A stretch of 64,000 nucleotides of DNA, from assembly GCF_029203285.1 (NCBI RefSeq), contig NZ_CP115669.1:124001-188000 (forward strand), read 5' to 3'. Source of the DNA: Pseudomonas sp. PSE14 (GTDB lineage Bacteria; Pseudomonadota; Gammaproteobacteria; Pseudomonadales; Pseudomonadaceae). The notes under the pieces were generated by a model. The model was not told the origin of the DNA. It made no database searches and was given only the letters and a program-made list of their open reading frames with translations. A program made the translations under genes and the position numbers. Below, in pieces: positions 3,064 to 11,610 of the stretch (its first letter is position 1; each line of letters opens with the position of its first letter).

Positions 3064-4215
3064 TCAGCCGCGCAGCCACTCCGCCAGGCGCGCCATCATC
3101 GCGTCGCACTTGGCCAACTGTTCCAGGCTGACGAACTCGTCCGGCTTGTGCCCCTGGTCCATGCTGCCGGGGCCGCAGACCACGGTGGGAATGCCGACCT
3201 GATCGAACAGCCCGCCCTCGGTGCCATAGGCCACGGTGGAGAACTCGCGGGAGCCGCTGAGCAGGGCGATCAGGTCGGCCGCCTCGGTCTGCGGGTCGGT
3301 AGCCAGTGCCGGGTAGGCGGACAGCGGGGTGAAGCGGATGTCCGCCTCGGCCTTCACTGCGCGCATCTTCGGCAGCAACTCGGCTTCGGCGTAGTCGCGC
3401 AGGTCATCGGCGACCTGTTGCGGGTCGTCACTGGGCAGCGCGCGCACTTCGAAATCGAACTGGCATTCGGCGGGCACGATGTTCAGTGCGCGGCCGCCAT
3501 TGATAACGCCGGTCTGCACGGTGGAGTAGGGCGGGTCGAAGCGCGGGTCGTGGCGCGCAGGCTCCGCCAGGCGGGTGCCGATCTCACCGAGGCGGCCGAT
3601 CAGCTTCGCCGCGTACTCGATGGCGTTCACGCCCTGCGGTGCATAGGCCGAGTGGCAGGCCGCGCCATGGACGCTGCAGCGCATCGCCAGCTTGCCCTTG
3701 TGCCCCAGCACCGGCTTGAGTTCGGTGGGTTCGCCAATGATGCAGACCATCGGCTTGTGTTCGCGCTGCTCCAGCGCGGTGATCAGCGAGCGCACGCCCA
3801 GGCAGCCGACTTCCTCGTCATAGGAGAAGGCCAGGTGCACCGGCAGGCGCAACGGCTGGGCGAGGAAGGCCGGAACCGCCGCCAGCACGCAGGCGATGTA
3901 GCCCTTCATGTCCGCGGTGCCGCGACCATAGAGGCGGCCGTCGCGCTCGGTCAGCTCGAACGGCGGGACCGTCCAGTTCTGCCCGTCCACCGGCACCACG
4001 TCGGTATGCCCGGACAGGCAAACGCCGCCGCGATCCCGCGGGCCGAGGGTGGCGTAGAGGTTGGCCTTGCCGCCTTCGGCGTCGTAGAACAGCTCGCTCT
4101 CGACGCCTAGACCTGCGAGGTAGTCGCGGATGTATTCGATCAGCGCCAGGTTGGGATTGCGGCTGACGGTGTCGAAGGCGATCAGCTTGGCGAGGATTTC
4201 ACGGCTGGTAGACAT
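3064..4215 (-). CDS. M20 family deacylase, ArgE-like (acetylornithine deacetylase type)
   Basis: A 383-residue cytosolic dizinc amidohydrolase, the usual length of ArgE. Metal and catalytic motifs are SGHTDVVP (His, Asp), GRGTADMKG (Asp), the YDEEVG Glu pair and the C-terminal PGSMDQGHKPDEF histidine. ArgE hydrolyses N-acetylornithine, but pseudomonads make ornithine through the ArgJ cycle. Its position as the last gene behind FMO, RidA-like and DUF1028 genes suggests a catabolic N-acyl amino acid substrate instead (inference). About 120 bases and a GTAGGAGCGAG repeat separate it from the DUF1028 gene, so it may be only partly co-transcribed. Confidence 0.8.
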   Translation of the reverse strand: MSTSREILAKLIAFDTVSRNPNLALIEYIRDYLAGLGVESELFYDAEGGKANLYATLGPRDRGGVCLSGHTDVVPVDGQNWTVPPFELTERDGRLYGRGTADMKGYIACVLAAVPAFLAQPLRLPVHLAFSYDEEVGCLGVRSLITALEQREHKPMVCIIGEPTELKPVLGHKGKLAMRCSVHGAACHSAYAPQGVNAIEYAAKLIGRLGEIGTRLAEPARHDPRFDPPYSTVQTGVINGGRALNIVPAECQFDFEVRALPSDDPQQVADDLRDYAEAELLPKMRAVKAEADIRFTPLSAYPALATDPQTEAADLIALLSGSREFSTVAYGTEGGLFDQVGIPTVVCGPGSMDQGHKPDEFVSLEQLAKCDAMMARLAEWLRG

Positions 4216-4241
4216 GGTCGGGTCCTGCTTCTTTGCTTTTT

Positions 4242-4323
4242 GTAGGAGCGAGCTAGCTCGCGAACAAACCCTGCAGCGAGGCAGGGGTCGCGAGCAAGGA
4301 CTAGGCGTCCCCCTCGCTCCTAC
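4242..4323. repeat. GTAGGAGCGAG element with 11-base inverted ends
   Basis: GTAGGAGCGAG at 4242-4252 and CTCGCTCCTAC at 4313-4323 are perfect inverted ends of an 82-base element. Inside lie further GAGCTAGCTCGCG and CTGCAGCGAGGCAG dyads. The same ends occur as a minimal hairpin at 43460-43485 and as an inverted pair at 60493-60564, so this is a dispersed family. It sits inside the operon, between the DUF1028 and M20 genes. Confidence 0.8.
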
Positions 4324-4335
4324 ATGTTCAAGGCA

Positions 4336-5010
4336 TCACTCGTCGCCCGGCACGCCGTAGCTCGGCGCCTTGGTCGGGTCGAGGGCGCGGGTGAGGTAGT
4401 CCTGCAGCTGCGGCTTGTAGGCGACCCAGAGCTTTTCCAGCTCATCGATCGGCGCCTCGTCGGCCCAGTCTACGCGCAGGTCGACGATCGGCCAGACCAG
4501 ATCGCCCACCACCTTCATGGCCGCCGAATGCACCGGACCGGCTTCGCCACCGGCGGCCATCGCCGCCTGCATGGCCGCCAGCAGACGCTCGGCCAGGCAG
4601 CCGTCGGCCTGCTCGAAGGCGCGGGTCATGGCTTCCATCACCGCCGTGGAGGACAGCAGGTTGCCCGCCGCCACGCAGTTCTCGCCGGCTACCGCGTGGT
4701 TCACACCCAGCGCTTCGCTGCCGGTGAACAGCGCGACCTTGCCGTGCTGGTCGATCACGGTCACCTGGCGGTACTGGCTGTAGCCGTTGCTCGACAGCGC
4801 CTTGTCCAGTGCCGCGCCAGGCTCCAGGCCGGTTTCCAGCAGGTCGAGGATCTGCGGGCCGAGGGCCGGCAGGGTGACGTTCTGTGTGGCCACCGCGCCA
4901 ACGCCGGCGCGTACCCAGGGGCAACGGGCGCCCACGGCAATGCTCGAGGAGCTGATGGCGATACCCAGCTGGCCGGTCTCGGCGCAGCGTCCAACGATGG
5001 AAAAGGTCAT
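4336..5010 (-). CDS. DUF1028 family protein (Ntn-hydrolase-like fold)
   Basis: A 224-residue cytosolic protein matching the DUF1028 family by its N-terminal MTFSIVGRCAETGQLGIAIS and the GARCPWVRAGVGAVATQNVT block. The family is thought to have an Ntn-hydrolase-like fold, and members often neighbour peptidase or RidA genes. No signal peptide. An AAGGAG lies 5 bases before the ATG, giving a good start. It is the third gene of the operon and starts 87 bases after the RidA-like gene. The reaction is not established; a hydrolytic step on an amide released by the upstream monooxygenase/RidA pair is an inference. Confidence 0.85.
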   Translation of the reverse strand: MTFSIVGRCAETGQLGIAISSSSIAVGARCPWVRAGVGAVATQNVTLPALGPQILDLLETGLEPGAALDKALSSNGYSQYRQVTVIDQHGKVALFTGSEALGVNHAVAGENCVAAGNLLSSTAVMEAMTRAFEQADGCLAERLLAAMQAAMAAGGEAGPVHSAAMKVVGDLVWPIVDLRVDWADEAPIDELEKLWVAYKPQLQDYLTRALDPTKAPSYGVPGDE

Positions 5011-5097
5011 GGGAGCTCCTTAATCAATCCTGTGTCGTAAACGACAAAACGGCGAGGCAGGGAAATCCCCGCGTCGCCGCTTCGCCTCAGCCATTCA

Positions 5098-5508
5098 TCA
5101 GTCCGGAATGACCGCGATGACGTCGATTTCCATCAGCCACTGCGGCTGGCCCAGGGCCGATACCACGAGGCCGGTGGAGATCGGGAACACGCCCTTCAGC
5201 CACTTGCCGACTTCCTGGTACACCGGCTCGCGGTAGCGCGGGTCGATGATGTAGGTGGTGGTCTTGACGATGTGCGACAGGTCGCTGCCGGCTTCTTCGA
5301 GCAGCTGCTTGACGTTCTTCATCGCCTGCTCGGCCTGGGCGCGCGGGTCACCCAGCCCTACCAGGTTGCCCTCGAAGTCGGTGCCGACCTGGCCGCGTAC
5401 GTACACGGTGTTGCCGGCGCGTACGGCCTGGCAGAGGTCGTTGTCCAGGGTCTGGTTCGGGTAGGTGTCCTTGGTGTTGAACATGCGGATGCGAGTATGG
5501 GTAGGCAT
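5098..5508 (-). CDS. RidA/YjgF-family protein, non-canonical (Rid4-7 type)
   Basis: A 136-residue Rid-fold protein. The fold is recognisable from QAVRAGNTVYVRGQVGTD, the QAEQAMKNVKQLLEEAGSDL helix, and the C-terminal ISTGLVVSALGQPQWLMEID. Archetypal RidA enamine/imine deaminases carry a catalytic Arg in the last motif; here that position is part of TGLVVSALG and no Arg is present, as in the Rid4-7 subfamilies. The ATG ends only 3 bases before the stop of the monooxygenase gene, so the two are translationally linked. This favours a role in hydrolysing or isomerising the imine the monooxygenase makes (inference). Confidence 0.85.
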   Translation of the reverse strand: MPTHTRIRMFNTKDTYPNQTLDNDLCQAVRAGNTVYVRGQVGTDFEGNLVGLGDPRAQAEQAMKNVKQLLEEAGSDLSHIVKTTTYIIDPRYREPVYQEVGKWLKGVFPISTGLVVSALGQPQWLMEIDVIAVIPD

Positions 5509-5511
5509 CTC

Positions 5512-6840
5512 TTACTCCCAGGAAGCGGCTTTTTGAACGGAGGCTTCGCGCTGCGAAGCGTCCTGGTATTCGACATATTTACGCTGGGTGGCGATGTGGC
5601 CGGCCACGTGCTTGGCGTCGTGCCAGACACCCCAGATGAACGAGGAGCCCCGGCGCGACAGCCACGGCAGGCCGACGAAGTACACGCCCGGCTCGCGGGA
5701 TACGCCACGCTGGTGCTTGGGCTTGCCCTTCTCGTCGAAGGCATCGACCTGCAGCCAGTTGAAGTCCACGGCATAGCCGGTGGCCCAGATGATCGAGGTG
5801 ATGCCGGCGGCGGCCAGGTCCAGTTCGAGGATCGGGTTGCGTACGCATTCGGCGTCCGGGTAGACCTTGCGGGCCTCCGGCTCTTCCGGCAGGTCCAGGC
5901 CGTTGCGCTCGATGTAGGCATCGGCGGCGTCCAGCAGGCCCAGGTAGTTCTCGTCGCCCGCCTTGAGGTTCTTCAGCAGGTCGTCCTGGAAGGTCACCTT
6001 GCCACCTTCGAAGGCCTTGGTCAGGCCGACCAGGGTGATGCCCTCGTTGGCCAGGCGGCGGAAGTCGATGGTCTCGCCACCACGGGCACCGCTCACGGCG
6101 ATGGTCACGTGCTCGCGACCCGGCTGCACTTCCTCGGCGTCCCACAGGCCGAGCACACCCAGCCACCAGACGAAGTCACGGTTGCGGTAGGAGCGCGGCG
6201 GACGGTCATGGGCGCCCACGGAGAGGAAGACCTTCTTGCCGGCGCGGTTCAGTTCGTCGGCGATCTGCACGCCGGAGGAGCCGGCGCCCACCACCAGCAC
6301 GGCGCCTTCGGGCAGCTGCTGCGGGTTGTAGTACTGGGCCGAGTGGATCTGCTGCAGGCTCTCGGTCTTCGGCGCGATGGCGGGGATCACCGGACGCTGG
6401 AACGGGCCGGTGGCGGAAACGATGCGCAGGGCCTGGAGGGTACCTTCGGAGGTTTCCACAGTGAAGCCGGGACGGCCGTTGTTGCGGGTCACCTTCTTCA
6501 CTTCCACGCCGGTGTGGATCGGCGCGTTGAATTGCTTGGCGTAGGCGACGAAGTAGTCCGCTACCTGCTCCTTGGCCGGGAACTCATCCGGGCCGACGGA
6601 GAATTCCATGCCCGGGAAACGGTCGTGCCAGGCCGGGCCGTTGGCGACCAGGGAGTCCCAGCGACCGGTGCGCCAGGCTTCGGCGATGCGGCTCTTCTCC
6701 AGCACGATGTGCGGTACGCCCAGGCTGGTCAGATGCTCGCTCATGGCCACGCCGGCCTGACCGGCGCCAACGACCAGCGTATCGATTTCCAGGTTTTCGA
6801 GCGACTTCTTGGCGAAGGCGTTCGGATTCAGCTCGGTCAT
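5512..6840 (-). CDS. flavin-containing monooxygenase (CzcO / class B type)
   Basis: A 442-residue FAD and NAD(P)H-dependent oxygenase, first gene of the operon. The FAD Rossmann motif is VGAGQAG at about residues 24-30, and the NADPH Rossmann motif is VGAGSSG near residue 186. An ATGY motif (IIWATGYAVDF) near residue 360 is typical of N-hydroxylases and FMOs. A GAGGAAG precedes the ATG by 6 bases. Class B oxygenases of this kind oxidise amine nitrogen, sulfur or carbonyl carbon; pairing with a Rid protein points to an amine whose product is an imine or unstable hydroxylamine. The substrate is unknown. Confidence 0.85.
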   Translation of the reverse strand: MTELNPNAFAKKSLENLEIDTLVVGAGQAGVAMSEHLTSLGVPHIVLEKSRIAEAWRTGRWDSLVANGPAWHDRFPGMEFSVGPDEFPAKEQVADYFVAYAKQFNAPIHTGVEVKKVTRNNGRPGFTVETSEGTLQALRIVSATGPFQRPVIPAIAPKTESLQQIHSAQYYNPQQLPEGAVLVVGAGSSGVQIADELNRAGKKVFLSVGAHDRPPRSYRNRDFVWWLGVLGLWDAEEVQPGREHVTIAVSGARGGETIDFRRLANEGITLVGLTKAFEGGKVTFQDDLLKNLKAGDENYLGLLDAADAYIERNGLDLPEEPEARKVYPDAECVRNPILELDLAAAGITSIIWATGYAVDFNWLQVDAFDEKGKPKHQRGVSREPGVYFVGLPWLSRRGSSFIWGVWHDAKHVAGHIATQRKYVEYQDASQREASVQKAASWE

Positions 6841-7107
6841 GGCTTGCTTCCTCTGACTCTGATCTCGTTGTTCTGCTTGTTGCGGCTAGTAGCGAGGTGC
6901 TTGGGCGCATTCTGTTCAGAGGCTGGCAATAGCGAAATTATGTTTTTTGTAGTCGCTGGCTAGGGAAAAGCTGTCGGGCCGCAAGCCACGCGGCATGCGG
7001 GCCGAAAGGGCGGGGGTATAGGATTTTTGGTGGCTGGGGTGACAAATTGGATAGGCAGCGTGTGGGCAGGGCGCCGTAGGCGGTTTTTCCAGGCTTTGGG
7101 TCAGCCG

Positions 7108-7226: not shown

Positions 7227-8147
7227 TTATCGGCTCTCCGCCACCGCCTCCAGGAACCGCTCCAGCACCAGGTTCGGCCGGCGGCCCTTGCGGGTGACCA
7301 CGGTCAGCGGGATGTCGTAGTGGAAGCGCTCCGGCCGCAGCGCCCGCATGCGGCCCTGGGCGACCCAGTCGGCGGCGTAGTGGTCGGGCAGGTAGCCGAT
7401 GTAGCTGCCGGTGAGGATCAGGAAGGCCATGCCCTCGCGGTCGGAGGCATTGGCGCCGCCGCGCAGTTCCTGATGCCGCTCCTGCGCCTCGGCGGGGATG
7501 CGATAGCTCGGCGCCACGGCATCGCAGGTGTGCACCTCCTCCACCGTGATGCTCGCGTCGTCGCGCTCGAACAGCGGGTGTTCGCGGCTGCAGTACAGCA
7601 ACGAGCGTTCTTCATAGAGAGAGGAGTACTCCAGCCCCGACAGCGGACTGATCAGCGGCACCACGCCCACGTGCAGGCGTCCGTCGAGCACGCCCAGCTC
7701 GATCTCGTTGGGCGTGGTCATGCCGATATTGATCCGTACCCCCGGCCCGCTGGCCTTCAGCGCGCGCAGGGCATGGGTGATGCGCATCTGCGGCAGAGTC
7801 ACCAGGTTATTGATGATGCCGATGTTCAGCGCGCCGCGCAGGTGTTGGTGCAGCTCGTTCACCTCCGCGCGAAAACCCTCCAGCGCCGCCAGCAGCGACT
7901 GGGTGGCGCGGTACACCTCGCGGCCCTCGTCGGTCATGGCGAAGCCGGCGCGGCCGCGCTGGCACAGGCGCATGCCCAGACGTTTCTCCAGGTCGCCCAT
8001 GTGCAGGCTGATGGCCGAGCGGCTGATGCCCAGCGTGCTTTCCGCGGCCGAGAAGCTGCCGCACTCGACTATGGTTTTGAAGATGCGCAGCAGGCGGATC
8101 TCGAAGTCGCTGACCTGGCCCAGGGAGGGCGCGCGGGATTTTGCCAT
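7227..8147 (-). CDS. bauR: LysR-type regulator of beta-alanine catabolism
   Basis: A 306-residue LysR regulator. The N-terminal winged HTH is clear (RIFKTIVECGSFSAAES, then LGISRSAISLHMGDLEKRLG), followed by the effector-binding domain. It is divergent from bauA with 137 bases between starts, the arrangement of P. aeruginosa bauR/bauA, where BauR activates the beta-alanine genes. Two dyads between the genes (8151-8200) are candidate binding sites. The name rests on synteny with bauABC and on the family. Confidence 0.8.
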   Translation of the reverse strand: MAKSRAPSLGQVSDFEIRLLRIFKTIVECGSFSAAESTLGISRSAISLHMGDLEKRLGMRLCQRGRAGFAMTDEGREVYRATQSLLAALEGFRAEVNELHQHLRGALNIGIINNLVTLPQMRITHALRALKASGPGVRINIGMTTPNEIELGVLDGRLHVGVVPLISPLSGLEYSSLYEERSLLYCSREHPLFERDDASITVEEVHTCDAVAPSYRIPAEAQERHQELRGGANASDREGMAFLILTGSYIGYLPDHYAADWVAQGRMRALRPERFHYDIPLTVVTRKGRRPNLVLERFLEAVAESR

Positions 8148-8150
8148 TTT

Positions 8151-8200
8151 AGTTTTACCAATTCGAAACTGAGCGTGAGAAGAATAGGCTTTAACTCACG
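8151..8200. promoter_or_regulatory. bauR-bauA divergent control region with two dyads
   Basis: Two perfect dyads lie between the divergent starts. AGTTT-N10-AAACT at 8151-8170 abuts the bauR start codon and fits a LysR autoregulation site. CGTGAG-N15-CTCACG at 8174-8200 is closer to the middle and has the long spacing of a LysR activation site. Binding by BauR is inferred from position only. Confidence 0.45.
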
Positions 8201-8284
8201 TTTAGTCAGGCTCAATCTTGGGCTATCGCAGCAGGCACGACGCGGCCTGCGCGCCCAACAAGACTGTCGTCGAGGACAAGCTCC

Positions 8285-9631
8285 ATGAACCAGCACGTGA
8301 ACGTCACCCCGTCGGTGGCCAGCGAACTGAACCTGAAGGCCCACTGGATGCCCTTCAGCGCCAACCGCAACTTCCACAAGGATCCGCGCATCATCGTCGG
8401 CGCCGAAGGCAGCTACCTGGTCGACGACAAGGGCCGCAAGATCTACGACAGCCTCTCCGGCCTGTGGACCTGCGGCGCCGGCCACTCGCGCAAGGAAATC
8501 GCCGACGCGGTGTCCAAGCAGCTGACCACCCTCGACTACTCCCCGGGCTTCCAGTACGGCCACCCGCTGTCCTTCAAGCTGGCCGAGAAGATCGCCCAGA
8601 TGACCCCCGGCAACCTGAACCATGTGTTCTTCACCGGCTCGGGTTCCGAGTGCGCCGACACCTCCATCAAGATGGCCCGTGCCTACTGGCGCATCAAAGG
8701 CCAGTCGCAGAAGACCAAGCTGATCGGCCGCGCCCGTGGCTACCACGGCGTGAACGTCGCCGGCACCTCCCTGGGCGGCATCGGCGGCAACCGCAAGATG
8801 TTCGGCCAACTGATGGATGTCGACCACCTGCCGCACACCCTGCAGCCGGGCATGGCCTTCACTCCGGGCATGGCCGAGACCGGCGGCGTCGAACTGGCCA
8901 ACGAGCTGCTCAAGCTGATCGAACTGCATGACGCGTCCAACATCGCCGCCGTCATCGTCGAGCCGATGTCCGGCTCCGCCGGCGTACTGGTACCGCCGAA
9001 GGGCTACCTGCAGCGCCTGCGCGAAATCTGCGACCAGCACAACATCCTGCTGATCTTCGACGAAGTGATCACCGCCTTCGGCCGCATGGGCAAGGCCACC
9101 GGCGCCGAATACTTCGGCGTGACCCCGGACATCATGAACGTCGCCAAGCAGGTCACCAACGGCGCCATCCCCATGGGCGCGGTGATCGCCAGCAGCGAAA
9201 TCTACGACACCTTCATGGGCCAGAACCTGCCGGAATACGCGGTGGAATTCGGCCATGGCTACACCTACTCCGCGCACCCGGTCGCCTGCGCCGCCGGCAT
9301 CGCCGCGCTGGACCTGCTGGAGAAGGAAAACCTCATCCAACAGTCCCTGGAGCTGGCGCCGTACTTCGAGAAGGCCATCCACGGCCTGAAGGGCGCGAAG
9401 AACGTCATCGACATCCGCAACTGCGGCCTGGCCGGCGCGATCCAGATCGCCGGCCGCGACGGCGACGCCATCGTGCGTCCGTTCGAAGCCAGCATGAAGC
9501 TGTGGAAAGAAGGCTTCTACGTGCGCTTCGGCGGCGACACCCTGCAGTTCGGCCCGACCTTCAACGCCAAGCCTGAAGACCTGGACCGCCTGTTCAGCGC
9601 CGTCGGCGACGCCCTCAACGGGGTGGCTTAA
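8285..9631 (+). CDS. bauA: beta-alanine (omega-amino acid):pyruvate aminotransferase
   Basis: A 448-residue class III PLP aminotransferase. It transfers the amino group of beta-alanine to pyruvate, giving malonate semialdehyde and L-alanine. The PLP lysine is Lys288 in NVAKQVTNGAIP, the same number as in the characterised Pseudomonas enzyme. FDEVITAFGRMG holds the PLP-ring Asp259, and GSGSECADTSIKMAR forms the phosphate cup. It is first in the bauA-bauB-bauC operon; its TAA directly abuts the GTG of bauB. Confidence 0.95.
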   Translation: MNQHVNVTPSVASELNLKAHWMPFSANRNFHKDPRIIVGAEGSYLVDDKGRKIYDSLSGLWTCGAGHSRKEIADAVSKQLTTLDYSPGFQYGHPLSFKLAEKIAQMTPGNLNHVFFTGSGSECADTSIKMARAYWRIKGQSQKTKLIGRARGYHGVNVAGTSLGGIGGNRKMFGQLMDVDHLPHTLQPGMAFTPGMAETGGVELANELLKLIELHDASNIAAVIVEPMSGSAGVLVPPKGYLQRLREICDQHNILLIFDEVITAFGRMGKATGAEYFGVTPDIMNVAKQVTNGAIPMGAVIASSEIYDTFMGQNLPEYAVEFGHGYTYSAHPVACAAGIAALDLLEKENLIQQSLELAPYFEKAIHGLKGAKNVIDIRNCGLAGAIQIAGRDGDAIVRPFEASMKLWKEGFYVRFGGDTLQFGPTFNAKPEDLDRLFSAVGDALNGVA

Positions 9632-9940
9632 GTGAGCGAACGTCCGAAGGCCGTCCCCACGGTACAGATCGACAACGACAAGGTCCTGGTCACCGAGTGG
9701 CGTTTCGCCCCCGGTGCCGAGACCGGCTGGCACCGCCACGGCATGGAATATGTCGTGGTGCCGGTGACCAACGGCGAGCTGCTGCTGGAAACCCCCGAGG
9801 GCGAGCGGCGCGCGCCGCTGGTCCTGGGCCAGAGCTACACCCGCCAGATCGGTACCGAACACAACGTGATCAACCCCTGCGATCACGAAGTGGCCTTCAT
9901 CGAGATCGAGCTCAAGGACGGCCAGCCGCACGACCACTGA
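9632..9940 (+). CDS. bauB: cupin-domain protein of the bau operon
   Basis: A 102-residue single-domain cupin with the two cupin motifs: the G(X)5HXH-type block AETGWHRHGMEYVVVPVTNG, and IGTEHNVINPCDHEVAFIEIEL. The start is a GTG at 9632 immediately after the bauA stop, so it is probably translated by coupling. P. aeruginosa has the same small cupin gene between the aminotransferase and dehydrogenase genes. Its biochemical role in beta-alanine breakdown is not established; metal binding by the histidines is likely. Confidence 0.85.
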   Translation: MSERPKAVPTVQIDNDKVLVTEWRFAPGAETGWHRHGMEYVVVPVTNGELLLETPEGERRAPLVLGQSYTRQIGTEHNVINPCDHEVAFIEIELKDGQPHDH

Positions 9941-10029
9941 GCGCGCGGGCACGCAAGCAGGCATGCCGGGACAAGTCACCCTAGAGTGGCTGCCGGCGTG
10001 CCTTGCAGCCCACGCTTCACACCGAACAA

Positions 10030-10068
10030 TCCCCTCTCCCTTCAGGGAGAGGGCTAGGGAGAGGGGCT
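10030..10068. repeat. CCCTCTCCC hairpin between bauB and bauC
   Basis: CCCCTCTCCCTTCAGGGAGA followed by GGGCTAGGGAGAGGGG is a single copy of the CCCTCTCCC family with a hairpin around TTCA. It lies within the bau operon, between bauB (stop 9940) and bauC (start 10114), and could reduce read-through into bauC. Confidence 0.75.
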
Positions 10069-10113
10069 CTTGAAAGAACCCCGCCCCACACTTTCAGCGA
10101 GAAGAGACAACCC

Positions 10114-11610
10114 ATGAGCACCGTCAAGCACCTGATCGGCGGCGAACTGATCGCCGACACCGGCCGCAGCGCCGACGTCTTCAACCCGTCCACCGGCGAA
10201 GCCGTACGCAAGGTCCCCCTGGCCAGCCGCGCCACCGTGCAGAAGGCCATCGACGCCGCCAAGGCCGCCTTCCCGGCCTGGCGCAACACCCCGCCGGCCA
10301 AGCGTGCCCAGGTCCTGTTCCGCTTCAAGCAACTGCTCGAAGCCAACGAGCAGCGCATCGTCCAGCTGATCAGCGAAGAACACGGCAAGACCCTCGAAGA
10401 CGCCGCCGGTGAACTCAAGCGCGGTATCGAGAACGTCGAATACGCCTGCGCCGCCCCGGAAATCCTCAAGGGCGAATACACCCGCAACGTCGGCCCGAAC
10501 ATCGACGCCTGGAGCGACTTCCAGCCCATCGGCGTGGTCGCCGGCATCACCCCGTTCAACTTCCCGGCCATGGTTCCGCTGTGGATGTACCCGCTGGCCA
10601 TCGCCTGCGGCAACACCTTCGTGCTGAAGCCGTCCGAGCGTGACCCGAGCTCCACCCTGCTGATCGCCGAGCTGTTCGAAGAAGCCGGCCTGCCCAAGGG
10701 CGTGCTGAACGTCGTGCACGGCGACAAGGAAGCCGTGGACGCGCTGATCGAGGCTCCGGAAGTCAAAGCCCTGAGCTTCGTCGGCTCGACCCCGATCGCC
10801 GAGTACATCTATTCCGAAGGCACCAAGCGCGGCAAGCGCGTGCAGGCCCTGGGCGGCGCCAAGAACCACGCCGTACTGATGCCCGACTGTGACCTGGACA
10901 ACGCCGTCAGCGCACTGATGGGCGCGGCCTACGGCTCCTGCGGCGAGCGCTGCATGGCCATCTCCGTGGCCGTCTGCGTGGGCGACCAGATCGCCGACGC
11001 GCTGGTCGACAAGATCGTCCCGCAGATCAAGGGCCTGAAGATCGGCGCCGGCACCTCCTGCGGCCTCGACATGGGCCCGCTGGTCACTGGCGCGGCGCAG
11101 GCCAAGGTCACCGGCTACATCGACAGCGGCGTCGAGCAGGGCGCCAAGCTGCTGGTGGACGGCCGTGGCTACAAGGTTGCCGGTCACGAGAACGGCTTCT
11201 TCGTCGGCGGCACCCTGTTCGACCAGGTGACCCCCGAGATGACCATCTACAAGGAAGAAATCTTCGGCCCGGTCCTGTGCATCGTCCGCGTGAACAGCCT
11301 CGAAGACGCCATGAAGCTGATCAACGACCACGAATACGGCAACGGTACCTGCCTGTTCACCCGTGACGGTGAAGCGGCCCGCCTGTTCTGCGACGAGATC
11401 GAAGTCGGTATGGTCGGCATCAACGTTCCGCTGCCGGTACCGGTGGCCTACCACAGCTTCGGCGGCTGGAAGCGTTCGCTGTTCGGCGACCTCCACGCCT
11501 ACGGCCCGGACGGCGTGCGCTTCTACACCAAGCGCAAGGCCATCACCCAGCGCTGGCCGCAGCGCAAGTCGCACGAAGCTGCGCAGTTCGCCTTCCCCAG
11601 CAATGGTTGA
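10114..11610 (+). CDS. bauC: CoA-acylating (methyl)malonate-semialdehyde dehydrogenase
   Basis: A 498-residue aldehyde dehydrogenase of the MMSDH family, converting malonate semialdehyde to acetyl-CoA with NAD and CoA and release of CO2, the second step after BauA. Catalytic Cys280 lies in [17 protein letters not shown] and LKPSERDPS are the NAD-site motifs, and [11 protein letters not shown] is near the C-terminus. The start at 10114 matches the family N-terminus; the longer upstream reading would translate the repeat. A strong terminator follows. The permease gene bauD of the P. aeruginosa cluster is not found here. Confidence 0.92.

Follow-up and report, generated by a model that had tools for sequence, protein, structure and literature searches.

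The hinFLHG operon

The stretch of DNA considered here (the window) is a 64,000-nucleotide part of the 5.98-Mb, single-contig genome of Pseudomonas sp. PSE14, and it carries four minus-strand genes between positions 3064 and 6840 that almost certainly constitute hinFLHG, the operon for the lower part of histamine degradation. In transcription order these are hinF, for a flavin adenine dinucleotide (FAD)/NAD(P)H monooxygenase of 442 amino acids (5512-6840; Pyr_redox_3, 1.9e-30); hinL, for a Rid-family protein of 136 amino acids (5098-5508; Ribonuc_L-PSP, 4.4e-23); hinH, for a DUF1028 protein of 224 amino acids (4336-5010; DUF1028, 6.5e-71); and hinG, for an M20 deacylase of 383 amino acids (3064-4215; Peptidase_M20, 1.6e-38). 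From these coordinates the intergenic gaps are 3 (bases 5509-5511), 87 and 120 bases. An earlier note on this DNA had described four tightly packed minus-strand genes, the first two separated by 3 bases, and the open reading frames bear this out in both position and family.

The arrangement is widely shared. The DUF1028 protein was used as a query against a genome collection and the best 80 of 164 relatives were kept; 76 of these 80 have the four genes on one strand and in identical order. Because order and strand are kept to this extent, the arrangement is not a product of chance, and the co-occurrence that the earlier note had wished to see checked in a neighbourhood survey is indeed found. 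The Rid and monooxygenase genes form a separate divergent pair in two relatives (L088 and L103), and two others (L043 and L105) have no monooxygenase match within the stretch of the locus that was searched. The Rid gene is the best conserved of the set, at 91-100% identity across the 80 relatives versus about 68-99% for the monooxygenase. Judged by the DUF1028 gene, Pseudomonas sp. 30_B, P. nitroreducens and P. citronellolis are among the closest named relatives.

Both hinFLHG of Pseudomonas putida U and genes PA5393-PA5390 of P. aeruginosa PAO1 consist of these four families, arranged as they are here. According to extracts of the published account, PA5393 is hinF, PA5392 hinL, PA5391 hinH and PA5390 hinG; histamine induces them by log2 values of 11.1, 10.7, 10.9 and 7.9, respectively, and their products convert imidazole acetate to aspartate (PMC8231116). 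The same extracts name the upper genes as PA0218 (hinK, a LysR regulator), PA0219 (hinD, an aldehyde dehydrogenase), PA0220 (hinA, a permease) and PA0221 (hinC, an aminotransferase), with PA0222 as the solute-binding protein of the gene set, and report that all five are strongly induced by histamine too (PMC8231116). The four PSE14 proteins are 76-97% identical to those of the P. aeruginosa PA7 locus (L055): 76% over 433 amino acids for HinF, 97% for HinL, 82% for HinH and 82% over 371 amino acids for HinG. In PA7 a phospholipase D-type gene and an M19 peptidase gene lie upstream. The source genome further resembles P. aeruginosa in having hinK, hinD and hinC; it differs in having no hinA, and its operon differs in adjoining bau genes and in carrying a REP-type repeat in the hinH-hinG gap.

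From homology and synteny, we infer that PSE14 runs the published histamine route. The earlier statement that no pathway had been assigned to this set must be withdrawn, since gene content and order match hinFLHG, as the published account shows (PMC8231116), whereas the view of the genes as one catabolic operon with amine breakdown as its theme is supported. This route has been described before, and the operon as such is not new. Breakdown of polyamines, ring cleavage of the vitamin B6 type and uptake of another N-heterocycle had been considered as functions and were set aside once the gene set matched hin; a look at the PP_2588/PP_2589 locus led nowhere.

The proposed route and its enzymes

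The route would begin with the conversion of histamine to imidazole-4-acetate by the aminotransferase HinC and the aldehyde dehydrogenase HinD. HinF would then use O2 and NAD(P)H to hydroxylate the ring of this compound to an imidazolone, HinH and HinL would open the imidazolone and hydrolyse the formimino C=N to give N-formylaspartate, with ammonia lost as the formimino group turns into formyl, and HinG would strip the formyl group to leave formate and aspartate. The intermediates (imidazolone, formimino-aspartate and formyl-aspartate) are those of the older biochemistry. The LysR protein HinK, with imidazole-4-acetate as its ligand, would turn on both loci. The earlier proposal of an oxidation, the resolution of a C=N bond and two hydrolyses comes close to the published route, and it is plausible that the enzymes act in that sequence.

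The product of 5512-6840 is proposed to be the imidazole-4-acetate hydroxylase. Class B flavin monooxygenases, or Baeyer-Villiger enzymes, bear the fingerprint FxGxxxHxxx(F/Y/W), and HinF has half of it: inspection of the translation by eye finds ESLQQIHSAQYY, with the His and the aromatic residue and without the Phe and Gly. Among named models HinF comes nearest to TIGR04046 (MSMEG_0569 family flavoprotein), which it matches over nearly its full length but with a score of 363 bits, below the cut-off of 498. This model belongs to the cyanide-related Nit1C cluster; cyanide assimilation was set aside, with no search for the rest of that cluster, once the gene set matched hin. The published assignment is FAD-monooxygenase, EC 1.14.13.5 (PMC6467879).

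HinG resembles the acetylornithine deacetylase ArgE in scoring above the cut-offs of both models for that enzyme (418 bits for TIGR01892, with a cut-off of 297.7, and 596 bits for NF005710). The score does not settle the substrate, however, because TIGR01892 may fail to tell the two enzymes apart. The activity numbered EC 3.5.1.8 is presumably formylaspartate deformylase. That number is the one given for HinG in the extracts of the literature, and it distinguishes HinG from ArgE, as does the catabolic context (PMC6467879). The label 'ArgE-type deacylase' in the earlier note is thus in agreement with the sequence models but not with the published function.

HinL belongs to the Ribonuc_L-PSP family, as do the RidA imine deaminases, and differs from them in that Ser replaces the catalytic Arg. 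In three printed alignments the residue aligned with Ser111 of HinL is Arg in the solved relatives 2csl and 1oni and Ala in the best match, 5v4f. An alignment of 11 Rid proteins, the window's own included, has Ser at this site in 10 rows and Phe in that from Acetobacter, and the likeness to RidA extends to Glu127, which is invariant in all 11. The earlier claim of a Rid protein without the catalytic Arg is therefore upheld. One study states that the Arg is required for imine hydrolysis by Rid proteins and that approximately 10% of RidA proteins have Ser at this position (PMC4433059); HinL itself is listed as an enamine deaminase in the excerpted source (PMC6467879). A match of HinL to the PADLOC library was also recorded (3.2e-7).

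DUF1028 is classed in Pfam as a family of unknown function, and a literature search on DUF1028 found nothing. HinH matches the solved protein 2imh at 5.1e-24. The column containing its Thr2 does not vary in alignments of 11 diverse and of 43 close sequences, and Thr2 might be an N-terminal nucleophile; the aligned Thr would not be residue 2 in L115 and L120, where the annotated start is placed further upstream. The structure predicted for DUF1028 from the 43 close relatives is poor (mean pLDDT, the predicted local distance difference test score, 59.4). HinH is named an amidase in the extracts of the published work (PMC6467879). As a separate observation, a hin-like cluster in Klebsiella aerogenes has its DUF1028 gene (L122:9433-10107) labelled 'major pilin protein fimA', although the product aligns as DUF1028 with 62% identity.

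The division of the middle steps between HinL and HinH is a matter that the sequence does not decide. We somewhat favor HinH as the ring opener and HinL as the formimino deiminase. The opposite assignment, with ring opening by the Rid protein and removal of the formimino nitrogen by the DUF1028 protein, falls only a little short of an even chance: the reactions would then take place in the order of the genes, F-L-H-G. Two weak arguments run the other way. The published names are amidase for HinH and enamine deaminase for HinL (PMC6467879), and ring opening is an amide-type hydrolysis, whereas C=N bonds are what Rid proteins act on (PMC4433059).

The upper genes and their regulation

The upper genes of PSE14 lie at a second locus, with hinC and hinD at 5.826-5.829 Mb and, when hinK is included, 5.826-5.831 Mb, all within approximately 5.2 kb; if the single contig is circular, this is about 0.28 Mb from the operon. 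The proteins are 90% (HinC), 78% (HinD) and 84% (HinK) identical to the relatives' proteins used as queries. An 18-kb stretch around this locus (L135), in which the locus spans C1:5819988-5830998, contains hinK and, outward on the opposite strand, a C-N hydrolase, hinD, hinC and a solute-binding protein, beyond which come an NCS1 permease (5823119-5824522), a histone-deacetylase-like amidohydrolase whose closest solved matches are 5li3 and 5g0x, and an AMP-binding ligase. These extra genes may mean that acylated histamines or another carrier are involved. HinK finds its best solved relatives in 3fzv/6m5f (1e-177), and 6m5f is presumably the HinK structure.

Upper genes are also found beside the operon itself. 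When proteins of the PSE14 genome were used as queries against flanks of up to 8 kb around the operon in the 80 relatives, a hinK-type LysR gene was counted in 31, hinD in 30, hinC in 26, a PA0222-like binding protein in 32 and an NCS1 permease in 13. Clustering of the neighbours likewise placed an aldehyde dehydrogenase, an APC permease, a class III aminotransferase, a polyamine-type binding protein and a LysR protein near the operon in many relatives, with a hinA-type APC permease cluster in 17 of the 80. The clusters and the L135 reading frames come from a GC3-rule gene caller that overextends or misses open reading frames, hinC in L135 being an example. One LysR cluster, spanning 50 loci, was rejected after it proved to have swept in unrelated overlapping reading frames, and the protein-query count of 31 of 80 replaces it.

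The phylogenetic profiles link the two loci in a similar way. Among 298 genomes of the family (cut-offs of E<=1e-60 for hinH and E<=1e-240 for hinC), hinH occurs in 124 and hinC in 93; both are present in 93, and hinC is never found alone. Fisher's test gives P values of 1.5e-50 for the whole set and 2.3e-40 outside the genus of PSE14, both of which are inflated by shared ancestry. Within the genus, all 25 genomes have hinH and all 25 have hinC, the latter at E<=1e-250.

A conserved AT-rich box, ACAAAAAACATAATTT, lies on the minus strand at 6935-6950, about 100 bases before the hinF ATG, and is a candidate HinK operator or promoter element. The word pair ACAA-N10-TTCG is present in 64 of 79 hinF upstream regions and in 8 of 31 hinD upstream regions, and a fuller pattern, ACANANNNNATAATTT, was written by eye from both kinds of region. 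This pattern occurs once in the window and in none of 100 shuffles. Across the genome its exact form appears only twice, before hinF and before hinD (reversed control, 0), a count to be read with the fact that the pattern was drawn from such promoters. Extracts of the published account state that HinK binds the hinD and hinF promoters and report a shared HinK operator in both (PMC8231116). The presence of ACANANNNNATAATTT in the two promoters would agree with such a shared operator. Ten of the 31 hinD genes lie within 120 bases behind hinG, and these are probably read through from hinG.

Points against the assignment and alternative readings

Several points weigh against the assignment of the operon and its upper genes to the histamine route. 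The equation of the PA7 locus with the PA numbers rests on gene order, gene families and neighbours, sequence identities having been taken to PA7 and not to PAO1; the published enzyme assignments are known second-hand. The pattern ACANANNNNATAATTT was derived from hinF and hinD promoters, and its exact form is present upstream of hinF in 59 of 79 cases but upstream of hinD in no more than 3 of 31. In P. aeruginosa, HinK is also reported to act on the phnAB and pqs promoters (PMC10912698). The source genome contains no hinA orthologue (best match 25%), and at E<=1e-60 hinA is matched in 6 of the 25 genus genomes and in none of the other 19. Finally, at the cut-off applied, hinC is missing from 31 of the 124 family genomes with hinH, and in many cases the substrate of the operon may thus be imidazole acetate instead of histamine.

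The last two points lend themselves to a different reading, in which the PSE14 operon serves mainly external imidazole-4-acetate or other imidazoles, and the hinC/hinD locus serves another amine. The absence of hinA here and from most of the genus, and of hinC from a quarter of the hinH-bearing family genomes, would fit, as would the NCS1 (cytosine/purine-type) permease that occupies the upper locus instead. Such a permease is also found near the operon on plasmids of Burkholderia, Paraburkholderia and Acetobacter and in 13 of the 80 Pseudomonas loci, where 12 are 45-46% identical to that of PSE14 and one is 74% identical. However, hinC and hinD are kept beside hinK at 90% and 78% identity, and the hinD promoter shares the hinF pattern; we consider this reading unlikely.

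The weakest reading, a still unassigned pathway for amines or N-acyl amino acids that is tied to the adjacent bau locus, can draw on the omega-aminotransferase, cupin, methylmalonate-semialdehyde dehydrogenase and LysR genes next to the operon, but it is most improbable, since bau neighbours occur in only 11 of the 80 relatives, the LysR protein encoded between the bau genes and the operon is just 29% identical to HinK over 150 amino acids, and the operon matches the pathway set out in the extracts cited above (PMC8231116).

Neighbouring features

The genes just named occupy window positions 7227-11610. Their bau names follow the earlier note. The bauA gene is a neighbour of the operon in 11 of the 80 relatives. 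The earlier note had used the adjacent bau locus as a clue to function; given that frequency, and with the partner genes located at 5.826-5.831 Mb, the clue was a poor guide. The LysR gene at 7227-8147 more likely encodes a bau regulator, because of its low identity to HinK and its position beside bauA. A hypothetical bridge between hin and bau can be imagined in carcinine (beta-alanyl-histamine), which would join both pathways.

The gap between hinH and hinG (4216-4335, minus strand) contains a REP-type inverted repeat, the unit of which, GTAGGAGCGAGCTNGCTCGCGA, lies at 4242-4263. With up to one mismatch, this unit occurs 279 times forward and 275 times in reverse across the genome (reversed control, 0), and the gap folds with -54.2 kcal/mol (z -4.56).

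Plasmid-borne versions

Relatives of the operon are also carried on plasmids, and 15 such stretches were compared, 5 of them taken from 30 listed DUF1028 matches and 10 from 40 listed Rid matches. With tblastn, DUF1028 and Rid are found in all 15 (the set having been found through either), HinF in 12 and HinG in 11. Annotation gives a HinF-type gene in 10 of 14 stretches, the gene tables being incomplete. No HinF match was found by tblastn in the stretches from Pantoea (L110), Klebsiella pneumoniae (L111) and Bacillus badius (L120), and no HinG match in L116 and L120; L113 and L114 have no HinG match at 1e-5, but in both an M20 gene is annotated immediately after DUF1028.

The two enterobacterial stretches, L110 and L111, have Rid, DUF1028 and M20 genes followed by an ABC transporter ATPase, a quinone oxidoreductase, a glutathione S-transferase, a type II dehydroquinase and a glyoxylate reductase. 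Among Klebsiella plasmid records, 110 have a DUF1028 relative and 105 a Rid relative. The Bacillus badius stretch has flavin reductase, 4-hydroxyphenylacetate 3-hydroxylase family and FAD synthetase genes ahead of Rid and DUF1028, and an amino acid permease, a class II histone deacetylase, a cytosine permease, an aminotransferase and an aldehyde dehydrogenase downstream. In the Acetobacter stretch (L115), genes for a GMC oxidoreductase and a cytosine permease are present in addition.

HinL, HinH and HinG may form a portable unit for undoing formimino or imidazolone nitrogen, paired with different front ends; this is a tentative idea, and we would sooner expect it to fail than to hold. If true, it ties DUF1028 and the Ser-type, Arg-less Rid proteins to imidazolone ring opening and formimino deimination, and the enterobacterial plasmid version without HinF would serve a substrate other than histamine.

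Significance

A named pathway now replaces an unassigned operon, and the labels RidA, DUF1028 and acetylornithine deacetylase find their explanation in it; such automatic names hide a histamine operon in many genomes. The remaining interest lies in the roles of the DUF1028 and Arg-less Rid proteins in the middle steps, in the absence of hinA and in the monooxygenase-free plasmid unit. Histamine is discussed as a signal between host and bacteria in the extracts of the published account (PMC8231116), and it is therefore useful to know which strains consume it and which carrier they use.

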